A stretch of 33,048 nt of DNA from Pseudomonadota bacterium. Its GTDB lineage: Bacteria; Pseudomonadota; Alphaproteobacteria; Acetobacterales; Acetobacteraceae. Location: positions 1 through 33,048 of the forward strand of contig JAJXWD010000032.1 of NCBI GenBank assembly GCA_021781835.1. The letters run 5' to 3'. The notes beneath the pieces were generated by a model. It searched no databases, was not told the origin of the DNA, and saw only the letters and a program-made list of their open reading frames with translations. Position numbers and translations under genes: made by a program. This document shows positions 6,623 to 20,698 of the stretch, one piece after another; within the stretch, counting starts at the first letter, position 1; each line of letters begins with the position of its first letter.

Positions 6623-6698
6623 GCCGTCCTAGCTCAGTCGGTAGAGCAACTGATTCGTAATCAGTAGGTCGCCGGTTCGATTCCGGCGGACGGCACCA
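6623..6698 (+). tRNA. tRNA-Thr (anticodon CGU)
   Basis: The 76-nt sequence folds as a full cloverleaf: acceptor stem GCCGTCC/GGACGGC, anticodon stem ACTGA/TCAGT with loop TTCGTAA (anticodon CGT in DNA, reading ACG codons), T arm GCCGG-TTCGATT-CCGGC, discriminator A and encoded CCA. It is the integration target of the following element: the element's att sequence reproduces the gene from the anticodon loop to the 3' end, so the tRNA is kept intact. Confidence 0.97.
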
Positions 6699-6707
6699 GT
6701 AAAATCA
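6654..6707 (+). repeat. attL: 54-bp direct repeat (3' part of tRNA-Thr plus 9 bp)
   Basis: Identical to 20645-20698. It starts in the anticodon loop and runs through the CCA end to TAAAATCA. Bases just outside differ (A before here, C at the other copy; A versus T after). Confidence 0.95.
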
Positions 6708-6756
6708 ACGGTTTGCAGGGCATTTTCCAGAATTCAGCAAGCCGACAGCCAAGCCT

Positions 6757-6774
6757 CCGGACTCTCTCCGGACT
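6757..6774 (+). promoter_or_regulatory. Candidate integrase arm site (left)
   Basis: The 18-bp sequence CCGGACTCTCTCCGGACT, containing two CCGGACT units 11 bp apart, lies 50 bp inside attL. An identical copy in the same orientation lies 120 bp inside attR (20507-20524). Position and duplication fit arm-type binding sites of a tyrosine integrase or sites of its directionality factor; the assignment is inferred. Confidence 0.55.
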
Positions 6775-6990
6775 GTTTGGCCGAGACCCTGGGCAGGGTC
6801 AAAAAAAAAGTTTTCCGCCAATTTCGCGGGCGCGCACGTTTGACCTAAACGCGGTTGGCGGATCGATCCTGCCAGGAACTTAAACCCCCACCCCCTTGCC
6901 GGGCAGAATGCACGACCCAGACCAGACCGACCGCCACGGCATCAACGGCGCCCGCCACCACCAGGCACGGCAACCGCATCACTCTCACCC

Positions 6991-7433
6991 GCACCTCGGG
7001 GCGCCGCCATCACCTCACCCGGCCACCGACCGCACGGCGCGTTCCTGTTCTGGCCCTGCGCTCCACTCTCCATACCCAAAAAACGGTGTGCCAAGTGTGC
7101 ATGTGTGCCAAACCAACATAACTTGTTGATATAAAACAGAATAATCAGGCACACCTTGAAGGCAAACGCGGCACACCTTTTCGATAGGTGTGCCAAACAC
7201 CGGCCTCACACCCGCCAGCACCTCGGGGCACCGCCATCACCTCACCCGACCACCGACCGCACGGCGCGTTCCTGTTCTGGCCCTGCGCTCCACTCTCCAT
7301 ACCAAAAAAACGGTGTGCCAGGTGTGCATGTGTGCCAAAGCCATTTAACTTGTTGATATAAAACAGAATAATCAGGCACACCTTGAAGACACACGCGGCA
7401 CACCTTTTGAAAATGTGTGCCAAACACCGGCCT
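6991..7433 (+). repeat. Tandem duplication of a 227-bp iteron-bearing unit
   Basis: Unit 1 (6991-7217) and unit 2 (7218 to about 7433) align at a constant offset of 227 bp with only scattered substitutions. Each unit has a GC-rich half (starting GCACCTCGGGG) and an iteron half with an AT-rich stretch (7111-7147 and 7338-7374). Within each unit six copies of GGTGTGCCA-like motif occur in the order three direct, two inverted, one direct. Confidence 0.93.
7085..7422. repeat. Left iteron cluster: 12 copies of GGTGTGCCA or close variants
   Basis: Direct copies begin at 7085, 7094, 7102, 7187, 7312, 7321, 7329 and 7414; inverted copies (GGCACACCT) begin at 7148, 7170, 7375 and 7397. The core GTGTGC is invariant. 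The AT-rich stretches 7111-7147 and 7338-7374 lie between the direct and inverted sets. The pattern is that of origin iterons plus an unwinding element, or of multiple sites for an element-encoded DNA-binding protein; which protein binds is unknown. Confidence 0.75.
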
Positions 7434-7477
7434 TGAACGCGCCTATGCGGGGCGCCTATATAATAGCCGTTATATAG
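7433..7477 (+). promoter_or_regulatory. Promoter and operator of the AbrB-Doc operon
   Basis: TTGAAC (7433-7438) and TATATA (7457-7462) form a promoter with 18-bp spacing. The -10 region lies inside a perfect inverted repeat, CTATATAA (7456-7463) and TTATATAG (7470-7477), 6 bp apart. This is a typical place for autoregulation by an AbrB-type antitoxin or its toxin complex. Confidence 0.65.
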
Positions 7478-7491
7478 TTAGGGCGTTTTTC

Positions 7492-7719
7492 ATGCTGACA
7501 ATGAAGATCACCACCGTTGGCGCATCCTCTGGCGTCATCTTGTCGAAAGAGATCATGGCCAAGCTCAAGGTGCAGAAAGGCGACACGCTTTACCTGACCG
7601 AAACGCCAGACGGCGGCTTCCGGATCACGCCCTATGACCCCGAGTTCGAGCGCCAGATGCAGTTGGCCGAACAGATCATGCACGATGACCGCGACATATT
7701 GCGGGCGCTGGCCAAGTGA
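7492..7719 (+). CDS. AbrB/MazE-family antitoxin
   Basis: The 75-aa protein is a SpoVT/AbrB swapped-hairpin DNA-binding domain: KITTVGASSGVILSKEIMAKLKVQKGDTLYLTE, then a C-terminal helical tail (EFERQMQLAEQIMHDDRDIL) expected to bind the toxin. ATG 7492 is preferred to ATG 7501 because AGGG lies 8 bp upstream of the former. Its stop overlaps the GTG start of the Doc gene (GTGA), the classic arrangement of a type II toxin-antitoxin operon. A palindrome over its promoter suggests autorepression. Confidence 0.87.
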   Translation: MLTMKITTVGASSGVILSKEIMAKLKVQKGDTLYLTETPDGGFRITPYDPEFERQMQLAEQIMHDDRDILRALAK

Positions 7720-18819: not shown

Positions 18820-18877
18820 GCGAACGGCGTTCGCAAATAATCAGGAAAACAAACAAAGAAACGCGAACGGCGTTCGC
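18820..18877. promoter_or_regulatory. Twin GCGAACGGCGTTCGC palindromes upstream of the tape-measure promoter
   Basis: Identical 15-bp palindromes at 18820-18834 and 18863-18877, 43 bp apart, about four helical turns, between the integrase stop and the tape-measure promoter. The position upstream of the -35 suits an activator or a looping repressor. The same site occurs at 10713 and, with one mismatch, at 15063. Confidence 0.65.
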
Positions 18878-18882
18878 AAATC

Positions 18883-20193
18883 CTACGGCGCGCCTTTCGG
18901 CTTTCTCCGCAACGCCACCACATTGGACGCGGGCGCCTTGCCCGCCGCCTGGCGCAACACATACTCGGCCCAGGCGGTCATTGCCCGCTCACGCTCGGGC
19001 AAAAATTCCTGGCGCTGATAGACCGCGGCCACCCCCTTTATGGCGCCCTGCACATGGTTCAGCAGCCGGTCGGCCACATGGGGCGCGAAGCCGAGACCGG
19101 CAAGCACCGTCACGCCCGTTCGCCTGAAATCGTGCATGGTCCAAGGCACGGATGGCGCGGCGCCCTGGCCGTCACCCGCCGGCGCCTCGGCGCGCTCCTT
19201 GGCAATTTCGGCGCGCAGGGCATCGAGGGCCTTAGTGAAATCCGCAATCGGCACCTTGCCCGCGGTAGTGAACACCAGGCGCGAGCCCTCGAGGCGCGGC
19301 ACAGCGGCCAGAGCTTCGCGCACCGGGGCCGCCAGGTGAACGATATGGGCTTTTTTATTCTTGGCCCGCGCGGCGGGCACCGTCCATATGTGGCCATCCG
19401 CGCTCAACTCGGCCCAGCGCATCCCCGCCACCTCGCTCTTGCGCTGCAAGGTGAGCAGCAACACCTGGAAATAAGCTCCCCACGGCTGGGCCAGCTTGCC
19501 CGCCGCGCGCCATATCTCGCCAATCTCGGCATCGGTCAGCACTCGTTCGCGGCTGCGCTCCTTCACCTCAAGCTCAATGGCCGCGAAGGGGCTCTCAGGG
19601 ATGAACCGCCGCCGCGCGGCCCAGCCGAAGGCCGCGCGCGCATAGGCCCGCACCCGTGATGCCATGACCGGCGAGGTTTTGGCCAAGCTGTCGATGGCCT
19701 GTTGGGCCTGGGCCTGGGTGAGCGCCTGCGCCGGATCATGAAGCCATGGCTCGAGCAGCCGCCGGATGGCGCGGGGCGCGTCCTGGCGGTGGCGGTCGCT
19801 GGCATCCCGCAGGGCGGTCTCGACCCAGGCGGTCAGCAGCTTATCGACCGTGAAAGCATCAACCTCTTGCGCGCGGCGGCGCTCGGTCTCGGCAGCACGC
19901 AAGGCGGCCTGCATGGCATCACGCTCGGCCACCGGATCACCGCCTTTGGCCAACTCGCCCAGCGCCACAAGCGCCGCCTGGCGCGCCTCATACACGGTCA
20001 CCTCCCCATGCTTGCCCAGGGGCAGGCGCTTCGTTCGACCGCCGCGCGTGAATTGGAGCAGGAACCGCTTGGCCCCGGTTTCGGTCACGCGGACCGCGAA
20101 TCCGGTTAACTCCGAGTCGAACACCAGCACATCCCGGCGCCCCGGCGGGCAGGCGAGGGAATCAACCAGGGTTTTCGTCAGCTTCTGGCGCAT
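18883..20193 (-). CDS. P4-type tyrosine integrase
   Basis: The 436-aa protein catalyses site-specific integration at tRNA-Thr and, with a directionality factor, excision. It has an N-terminal DUF4102-type arm-binding domain (residues 1-85: LTKTLVDSLACPPGRRDVLV, VTETGAKRFLLQFTRGGRTK), a core-binding domain (115-205) and a catalytic domain with Arg251 (LTLQRKSEV), His354 and Arg357 (MHDFRR), His380 (LLNHV) and nucleophile Tyr392 (AVYQRQ). ATG 20193 is used; ATG 20205 is an alternative. The longer open frame upstream crosses iterons and is rejected. It is transcribed away from attR, 450 bp from it. Confidence 0.93.
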   Translation of the reverse strand: MRQKLTKTLVDSLACPPGRRDVLVFDSELTGFAVRVTETGAKRFLLQFTRGGRTKRLPLGKHGEVTVYEARQAALVALGELAKGGDPVAERDAMQAALRAAETERRRAQEVDAFTVDKLLTAWVETALRDASDRHRQDAPRAIRRLLEPWLHDPAQALTQAQAQQAIDSLAKTSPVMASRVRAYARAAFGWAARRRFIPESPFAAIELEVKERSRERVLTDAEIGEIWRAAGKLAQPWGAYFQVLLLTLQRKSEVAGMRWAELSADGHIWTVPAARAKNKKAHIVHLAAPVREALAAVPRLEGSRLVFTTAGKVPIADFTKALDALRAEIAKERAEAPAGDGQGAAPSVPWTMHDFRRTGVTVLAGLGFAPHVADRLLNHVQGAIKGVAAVYQRQEFLPERERAMTAWAEYVLRQAAGKAPASNVVALRRKPKGAP

Positions 20194-20291
20194 GGCGGCG
20201 AGCATTCCACAACCTGGCCACCGGGCGCCAGGGGCGATTTGCGCGGCCCGGCGGGCCACCAAGCTCGGCGCCACGGGGCGCGCGGCGGTTT

Positions 20292-20451
20292 GGCACACAT
20301 GCACACCTCTGGCACACCTTTTTTCGGACAAGGTGTGCCAAGCCAGACCCCGCCCCACAAAACACCAAAGATGTAGTATTTATCTATATGTATAAGTACA
20401 CATACACATATAAATATACACCAAAAGTGTGCTGGCACACCTGGCACACCT
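20292..20451. repeat. Right iteron cluster with AT-rich unwinding-type tract
   Basis: Seven GTGTGC-core motifs: GGCACACAT at 20292, TGCACACCT at 20300, GGCACACCT at 20311, 20434 and 20443, direct GGTGTGCCA at 20332 and AGTGTGCTG at 20426. Between the groups lies a tract of about 58 bp of mostly A and T (20368-20425). The motif equals the left-end iterons. Together with iterons the tract resembles a replication origin; the cluster also covers the integrase leader. Confidence 0.72.
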
Positions 20452-20506
20452 CGTTTTCACCATTTTAAGCTCCCGGCGCGTTTTTCCACCTTCGTTACGG
20501 ATCGTA

Positions 20507-20524
20507 CCGGACTCTCTCCGGACT
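20507..20524 (+). promoter_or_regulatory. Candidate integrase arm site (right)
   Basis: CCGGACTCTCTCCGGACT, identical and in the same orientation as 6757-6774. It lies 120 bp inside attR. Confidence 0.55.
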
Positions 20525-20644
20525 CGTCAGTGACGCCATTCACGACATTTTATTGCGCGTCTTTGCATCATACGGCCCCACAAGCCTTTGAAGTATGCGG
20601 CTTCTTGCGTCTCACCGCATTTTGCCGCACCTCCGCAAGCTTGC

Positions 20645-20698
20645 TTCGTAATCAGTAGGTCGCCGGTTCGATTCCGGCGGACGGCACCAGTAAAATCA
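20645..20698 (+). repeat. attR: 54-bp direct repeat (tRNA-Thr 3' fragment)
   Basis: Second copy of the 54-bp repeat. It has only the 3' part of the tRNA gene, so it is not a functional tRNA gene. Confidence 0.95.

Follow-up and report, generated by a model that had tools for sequence, protein, structure and literature searches.

A tape-measure gene in a tRNA-linked integrative element

The stretch of DNA analyzed here, referred to as the window, comprises 33,048 nucleotides of contig JAJXWD010000032.1 from a bacterium of the Acetobacteraceae (assembly GCA_021781835.1, genome G000 in our set). It contains a 14.0-kb integrative element (6651-20698) integrated at a tRNA-Thr gene and bounded by two att copies 13,991 bp apart, the left of which overlaps the 3' half of tRNA-Thr(CGT). 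The first-pass annotation of the window had described a satellite-like, att-bounded island whose only virion gene encodes a tape-measure protein (TMP); the att-bounded element holds, with a repeat length of 57 bp where 54 bp had been given. From the tRNA end the element carries 227-bp repeats, an AbrB-like/Doc gene pair, a resolvase, a DUF927 protein, a Toprim primase, an AlpA-like regulator, a 299-aa protein, three small proteins, a divergent XRE-like regulator, a DUF4236 protein, a 112-aa protein, the TMP and a tyrosine integrase (Table 1). Family matches confirm the integrase, Toprim primase and DUF927 assignments made before; the AlpA-type regulator has a weak PHROG match and no Pfam match at E ≤ 0.01. 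The Doc-type toxin with its AbrB-like partner, the serine resolvase, the DUF4236 protein and the 112-aa protein are additions to that annotation.

Among the matches listed in Pfam and PHROG scans of the other element proteins that were covered (25 of the 43 families matched in the pooled PHROG scan), there are no terminase, portal, capsid, other tail or lysis families, as the first-pass annotation had maintained. Family models gave no sign of a prophage, either as whole genes or as remnants, for portal, capsid, large terminase, tail tube or lysis; fainter remnants could escape such models. The genes sid, psu, delta and alpha are markers of P4; no such family is among the listed library matches, in which no search was aimed at them.

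The TMP is 918 aa long with no internal stop, so the earlier description of an intact gene stands. It matches 11 PHROG families, nine of which are named tail length tape measure protein (best of these, 3.5e-24), and phrog_2854 aligns over residues 6-882; kinship with phage TMPs runs along the length of the protein. The best PHROG match, phrog_13338 (9.7e-32), has no named function, and the PhageMin_Tail match (E = 1.7e-7) scores 31.7 bits, slightly below the Pfam cut-off of 33.2. The TMP is a patchwork in which residues 126-330 are myophage-type-like and residues 675-866 siphophage-type-like, with hydrophobic segments at about 336-354 and 780-811. The ratio of non-synonymous to synonymous substitution rates (dN/dS) is 0.14-0.17 against the related island in genome G309 (839 codons) and 0.10-0.21 against that in G110 (918 codons, with synonymous sites near saturation), and these values indicate that the window TMP is under purifying selection.

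Lone TMP genes recur in islands of the order

We searched 299 genomes of the order with a TMP query from an island and obtained 37 rows corresponding to 36 places in 34 genomes, the TMP of G120 being split into two rows. Neighborhoods were examined for 35 of the 36 places, and the second copy in G162 was judged from an adjacent sheath match. At nine of the 36 places the TMP lies in an island that has an integrase and gives no match to sheath, tube, portal or capsid: G000 (the window), G110, G120, G004, G018, G242, G247, G228 and G253. The remaining 27 places read as prophages, 22 of them with sheath, tube, portal or capsid matches nearby (in G023, G089 and G095 the prophage call comes from a sheath match, about 1.4 kb away from that of the TMP), and five (G227, G088, G279, G037 and G011) read as siphophage-like prophages from common neighbor genes. 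A genus search of 38 genomes, overlapping the 299-genome set and with a TMP match cut-off of E ≤ 1e-6, added a tenth island in G309, giving ten islands in five genera. The search for homologous islands with a lone TMP that the first-pass annotation had proposed thus finds a recurrent arrangement. Gene calls are poor in low-GC stretches (L122 in part, L123, L125 and L129).

Each of the nine complete islands has an integrase and is bounded by direct repeats of 19-57 bp that lie 12-18 kb from each other. In the eight besides the window the repeats are 19-55 bp long and 12.3-18.4 kb apart; six of the eight have an ARAGORN tRNA at one or both repeat copies (Thr, Ser, Ala, Thr, Thr and Asn), and the other two have tRNA-like 3' ends only. 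As controls we took the 30 best-scoring loci each for sheath and portal: all 30 sheath loci have a tail tube gene alongside and all 30 portal loci an S49 protease, a contrast with the island-query TMP search that is somewhat flattered by the prophage queries from which the controls started.

In a genome from another family of the class, the stretch L188 (G672:C10:143000-162999) has consecutive genes (6429-13457) for an integrase, a TMP-like protein of 735 aa and a VapE-type primase. It is a candidate lone-TMP island; no end repeats were found in it.

Island TMPs group with different prophage TMPs

The TMP tree contains 28 sequences; those below 400 aa are left out, as are the TMPs of siphophage type from G253, G227, G088 and G279. 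The nine island TMPs in it require six label changes on the best tree, at least four of which are forced by supported branches, and a single island clade is rejected by the approximately unbiased test (p-AU 1.2e-79); eleven rows have unusual composition and the branches of the tree are long, which calls for caution. The G228 TMP groups with those of prophages L046 and L043 (100/99), and the G018 TMP with that of L045 (100/100). The G247 TMP falls among those of 13 prophages in a group of 14 rows (100/99). Outside the tree, the G253 TMP resembles the TMPs of siphophage-type prophages along most of the protein. From these sequence groupings it is hard to avoid the conclusion that the island TMPs have several origins.

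The first-pass annotation had suggested that the element gives satellite particles tails of chosen length. The median length of myophage-type TMPs is 645 aa in islands (n = 5) and 648 aa in prophages (n = 13 of the 19 in the tree; L043, L117, L126 and L127 were dropped as cut by the end of the stretch or contig, and L128 and L045 were also left out). We reject tail shortening as the purpose of the island TMPs on the basis of these medians.

Close relatives of the window island

The genus search found TMP matches in seven genomes, and window-type island TMPs in three besides the window, with identities to the window TMP of 91% (G309), about 65-67% (G110) and 52% (G120). Conservation in related islands, on which the first-pass annotation had staked its proposal, is thus seen in the three nearest islands. 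A scan of genome contigs for relatives of the element found one, L003, which belongs to the G309 island.

Gene order is common to the G000, G110 and G309 islands. The G110 island is syntenic with the window element and lies at the same tRNA (integrase 90%, Toprim 72%, DUF927 66% and Doc 89% identical). Its host flanks are 90-94% identical to those of the window and its aligned island stretches 67-85%; since the flanks are closer than the islands, joint descent of islands and hosts is improbable. The G309 island, on three contigs and at a diverged tRNA-Thr, shows the opposite pattern, with aligned stretches 84-98% identical and host flanks that hardly align. Together the two identity patterns point to horizontal movement of the islands. 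The G309 island also has a small gene pair between DUF4236 and XRE (L003:3827-4334) that is absent from the window island and that, as we take it, resembles BrnT/BrnA toxin-antitoxin.

Partner genes in sister islands

The 112-aa protein is encoded directly behind the TMP in all four window-type islands (G000, G110, G309 and G120), which makes it a candidate TMP partner; its structure prediction (predicted local distance difference test, pLDDT, 51) is too weak to name a fold. Further partners are found in sister islands. In G004 and G228 a tail assembly chaperone gene (PF10109) directly precedes the TMP and an S49 head-maturation protease gene follows it. G242 encodes a baseplate hub of the Mu gpP/gp44 type. 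It also encodes a 166-aa protein whose match falls in the part of a head protease family beyond the S49 domain, and from that match we read it as scaffold-like. A small terminase subunit lies inside the G228, G242 and G247 islands; a custom profile found only that of G247 among island genes, and the PHROG model placed those of G228 and G242 too.

HK97-type protease-like proteins are encoded in G120 (L035:12012-12770) and G253 (L039:4511-5224). Each is the closest match of the other among the sequences compared (44%), ahead of all prophage copies, and the two may form a satellite-specific lineage. The best PHROG match of the G120 protein, phrog_617 (3e-29), is named major head protein; we read it as a protease because of its phrog_80 match (4e-25) and its alignment with prophage proteases. 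The G253 call comes from alignment with prophage proteases and the custom profile only. S49-type or HK97-type head-maturation proteases are thus present in four of the ten islands and a scaffold-like protein in a fifth, which suggests a capsid role for some of the islands as well.

Two candidates were rejected. An S49 protease near the G018 island lies outside the att repeats, has an N-terminus unlike the phage ones and is read as a host gene. A product of G228 (L082:16153-16881) matches phrog_1924, named minor tail protein, and its gene recurs in islands without a TMP; the name is probably misleading and the product probably SRAP-type, an SRAP match seen in the same set being presumed to belong to it.

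Other features of the window element

There are 11 copies of GTGTGCCA in the window against 0.9 expected, all of them within 7086-7422 and 20291-20449. These clusters and the repeats bear out what had been called iterons, but with a cluster near each end of the element, sites for the integrase or an excisionase are just as likely as a replication origin. The 227-bp repeats with their GTGTGCCA motifs are probably recombination sites. The window contains two of these repeats and G309 (L170:7703-8213) apparently three.

With regard to an empty site, the left flank and the tRNA of the window recur in G150 and G316, and no right-flank similarity is listed on the stretches compared. In G179 (L169, G179:C20, 4650-14972) a different 10-kb element, with an integrase of 30% identity, lies between repeats at tRNA-Thr(CGT), which indicates that the site is common to unrelated elements.

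The AbrB/MazE-like name of the first gene in Table 1 is one that we presume from its sequence and position, and the XRE family name one that we assume by eye and from kinship to genes of related islands. The structure prediction of the 299-aa protein (pLDDT 37) is too low in confidence for use. The DUF4236 gene has a dN/dS against G309 of 0.8-1.3, with few changes. Relatives of the Toprim primase occur on plasmids, where enterobacterial plasmids lead by number among the matches listed; the 12 best listed are, we take it, alphaproteobacterial.

Table 1. Features of the window element and its tRNA target
Feature	Position	Strand	Evidence and remarks
tRNA-Thr (CGT)	6623..6698	+	ARAGORN; target gene restored by att repeat
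att repeat, left copy	6651..6707		57-bp direct repeat, 98% identical to right copy
Two 227-bp direct repeats (91%)	6971..7424		GTGTGCCA motifs in both; probably for recombination or regulation
AbrB/MazE-like antitoxin (presumed)	7492..7719	+	start codon chosen by hand; precedes Doc; 96% identical in G110 island
Fic/Doc-type toxin	7716..8105	+	PF02661 7e-18
Serine resolvase	8195..8746	-	PF00239 3e-39
DUF927 helicase/primase-associated protein	8883..10751	-	PF06048 4e-79; phrog_1139 DNA primase 2e-77
Toprim primase (DUF7146 + Toprim_3)	10748..11785	-	Toprim_3 1e-14; phrog_510 2e-49
AlpA/excisionase-like regulator	12125..12379	-	phrog_66 6.9e-5, weak; no Pfam match at E ≤ 0.01
299-aa protein, no assigned function	12457..13356	-	conserved in G110 (49%) and G309 (61%) islands
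Three small adjoining genes (84, 89, 138 aa)	13600..14533	-	
XRE-type regulator (presumed), divergent	14650..14901	+	99% identical in L003 (G309), 61% in G110 island
DUF4236 protein	15110..15430	-	PF14020 2e-20; conserved in G110, G309 (L003) and G120 islands
112-aa predicted helical protein, candidate TMP partner	15638..15976	-	3 bp downstream of TMP
Tape-measure protein, 918 aa	15980..18736	-	
P4/phage-type tyrosine integrase	18883..20205	-	Arm-DNA-bind_3 2e-14; Phage_integrase 2e-10; phrog_1 7.5e-51
Five GTGTGCCA motifs near integrase end	20291..20449		
att repeat, right copy	20642..20698		57 bp, 98% identical to left copy

Proposed role of the island TMP

We consider it moderately probable that the element is a phage satellite, with a layout like that of phage-inducible chromosomal islands (PICIs), which puts its own TMP into tails built from helper parts. 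Upon infection by a helper phage or its induction, the island would excise and replicate, and the helper would provide the capsid, portal, large terminase, tail tube and tip. The island TMP, perhaps with the 112-aa protein, would nucleate the tail tube instead of the helper TMP, yielding chimeric tails on satellite particles. TMPs also act in DNA entry and injection, and the island TMP may act at DNA entry as well. Sister islands would provide more of the tail assembly step (chaperone, hub), and some also capsid-maturation or DNA-packaging parts. Chimeric tails are the best-supported reading because the islands carry, in varying subsets, the three kinds of tail part of the PICI-like elements (PLEs) of Vibrio cholerae. 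The likely benefit would be control over which particles gain functional tails, or evasion of blockers of tail assembly that target the TMP, such as Tab; we favor replacement for specificity or blocker escape over length control because island TMPs are not shorter. Of the earlier idea that the element replaces a helper TMP, the part that stands is a satellite-like element with a recurrent, independently acquired TMP. A possible helper is the myophage-type prophage of G000 itself (G000:C1:118000-140836, L042 and beyond), which has a 605-aa TMP and its own chaperone and small terminase.

Several results weigh against the chimeric-tail reading. The TMP query was taken from an island, which favors finding island TMPs. 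The patchwork of the window TMP leaves the helper tail type ambiguous, no phage record covers 80% of this TMP, and two scans of viral contigs gave no relative; among the nine complete-island genomes the sheath query matches only G000. A promoter consensus scan of 14400-20700 gave 2 promoter-like sites against 1.2 expected, none of them upstream of the TMP on its strand, so the promoter of its own that had been ascribed to the gene was not recovered. On the window contig, whole-genome searches gave no match to the small terminase (phrog_57) or the tail chaperone (PF10109). Of the ten islands, eight have no PF10109 match and seven no small-terminase match, and no primase was recognized in the G120 island.

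A further point on the same side comes from a survey of the Toprim primase, which covered 31 loci, of which 22 island-like stretches with an integrase were counted and seven without an integrase call and two prophage stretches (L109, L111) were excluded. A TMP is present in five of the 22, and the other 17 match none of 19 virion profiles; the seven stretches without an integrase call have no virion profile match either. Small-terminase relatives are found in one of the 17 TMP-less islands (cluster c27 in L084) and in L087 (no integrase call). The absence of a TMP from 17 of the 22 islands indicates that the TMP is an accessory module outside the replication core. In the six Toprim islands with a TMP (G309 included), the TMP adjoins the integrase or lies one gene away. 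The Toprim and DUF927 island core is widespread (L084-L108, many genera), often with a resolvase and with no virion-profile match.

The main rival is tail-assembly interference, in which the island TMP would be a dominant-negative decoy that sequesters tube, chaperone or tip, so that the phage is left tailless, the host is protected and the element spreads otherwise. Tail assembly is a known target of element-borne defenses, and passages of PMC10884400 and PMC11364771 describe Tab, which is reported to recognize the phage TMP, and Tai, which blocks tail formation. The window TMP has no recognized chaperone or hub, and the island also carries a Doc-type toxin. However, padloc gave no match in the ten window proteins scanned (antitoxin included; TMP, integrase, resolvase and Doc excluded). 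To our knowledge the described blockers Tab, Tai and Rta are not themselves TMPs, whereas the window TMP is full length and under purifying selection, and the chaperone, hub, scaffold-like protein or protease that sister islands retain are parts for assembly rather than for a decoy. We regard interference as unlikely.

Less likely still, and in our view improbable, is that the protein has been exapted outside the virion as a TMP-like coiled-coil or membrane protein, for example in superinfection exclusion or DNA entry. The role of TMPs at injection, the hydrophobic segments, the Pfam score below cut-off and the unnamed best PHROG match would fit such a role, but the resemblance to TMPs extends to both termini and several lineages took TMPs from different tail types, some beside a chaperone or hub. 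That the islands are degraded prophages in which a long TMP gene survived by chance is very improbable and we reject it: TMP genes are long and some islands keep at least one further head or tail gene, but the ends are intact with an integrase in all nine complete islands, gene order is kept in G000, G110 and G309, dN/dS is low, the same outcome recurs in polyphyletic TMPs, and none of the 60 best-scoring sheath and portal control loci lacks its usual neighbor.

Beyond the single element, the satellite with its own TMP may exemplify, as we suggest more tentatively, a convergent satellite class in this order that takes over virion assembly via initiating parts alone. Its TMPs would have been captured independently from different tail types, the window type would be the minimal form (TMP and a small partner), and others would add a chaperone, hub, head protease or scaffold. 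Tails specified by satellites would in that case be a general strategy that reaches beyond PLEs.

Comparison with known satellites

That satellites control helper capsids has long been known. Control of tails was first shown in 2026, for one satellite family of one species, according to PMC12987554. If our reading is true, tail takeover arose repeatedly and can rest on the TMP alone. It would also become testable what a TMP suffices for: tail length, tube nucleation or the genome delivered. For genome mining the rule would be a TMP in an integrase-bearing, tRNA-linked island without a sheath or tube gene. A search of titles and abstracts of open papers in PubMed Central (no preprints) gave, among the matches listed, no paper besides PMC12987554 on lone-TMP islands of this kind; within that literature, this island family, the repeated capture of TMPs and the TMP-only form appear to be new.

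The first-pass annotation knew of no described satellite that works in this way, a statement now out of date. As reported in passages of PMC12987554 (Nature, March 2026), PLE satellites of V. cholerae place their own TMP in virions with chimeric tails. PLE11 encodes a TMP, a tail assembly chaperone (TAC) and a baseplate hub (BhuB); its TMP is present in PLE virions, from which the phage TMP is excluded, and the tails are ~10 nm shorter; deletion of tmp cuts transduction by ~99.9% in PLE11, 96% in PLE1 and 99% in PLE4 (PMC12987554, same passages). Like PLEs, the islands described here are small integrated elements with their own TMP, and the chaperone in G004 and G228 and the hub in G242 match the kinds of part given for PLE11. 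Unlike PLE11, the window island has no hub and no chaperone recognized by family models or by PF10109 on its contig, which fainter chaperone families could escape; TMP and chaperone genes occur together in G004 and G228. Its replication genes are Toprim and DUF927, and the likeness to PLEs lies in the kinds of part.

The same bacterial family harbors Mu/P2-like and lambda-type prophages (L042, L046, L110, L115 and others) with related TMPs, chaperones, hubs and S49 proteases. Those prophages carry portal, sheath and tube genes, whereas none was found in the islands.

The window element differs from PICIs in having one virion gene, the TMP, with no other structural or lysis gene found, and its replication genes presumably differ from theirs. 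Capsid-forming PICIs (cf-PICIs) encode capsid-forming genes, none of which was found in the window element. The likeness to cf-PICIs lies in the predicted TMP: the legend of Extended Data Fig. 10 in PMC12987554 gives putative tmp genes in other putative satellites including cf-PICIs. As in the Gram-negative PICIs described in part of PMC6092414, an integrase, a replication module and a regulator (here with a weak AlpA match) stand in a layout that is conserved in G110 and G309. The size of 14.0 kb falls within the range of about 12-15 kb given for PICIs in the same part of PMC6092414, and no lysis or capsid gene was found. The small terminase subunit, a satellite hallmark, is present in sister islands G228, G242 and G247. 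Overall, the integrase, primase and att ends, together with a lone TMP that is recurrent, conserved and apparently independently acquired in such islands, uphold the original description of the window element as satellite-like.

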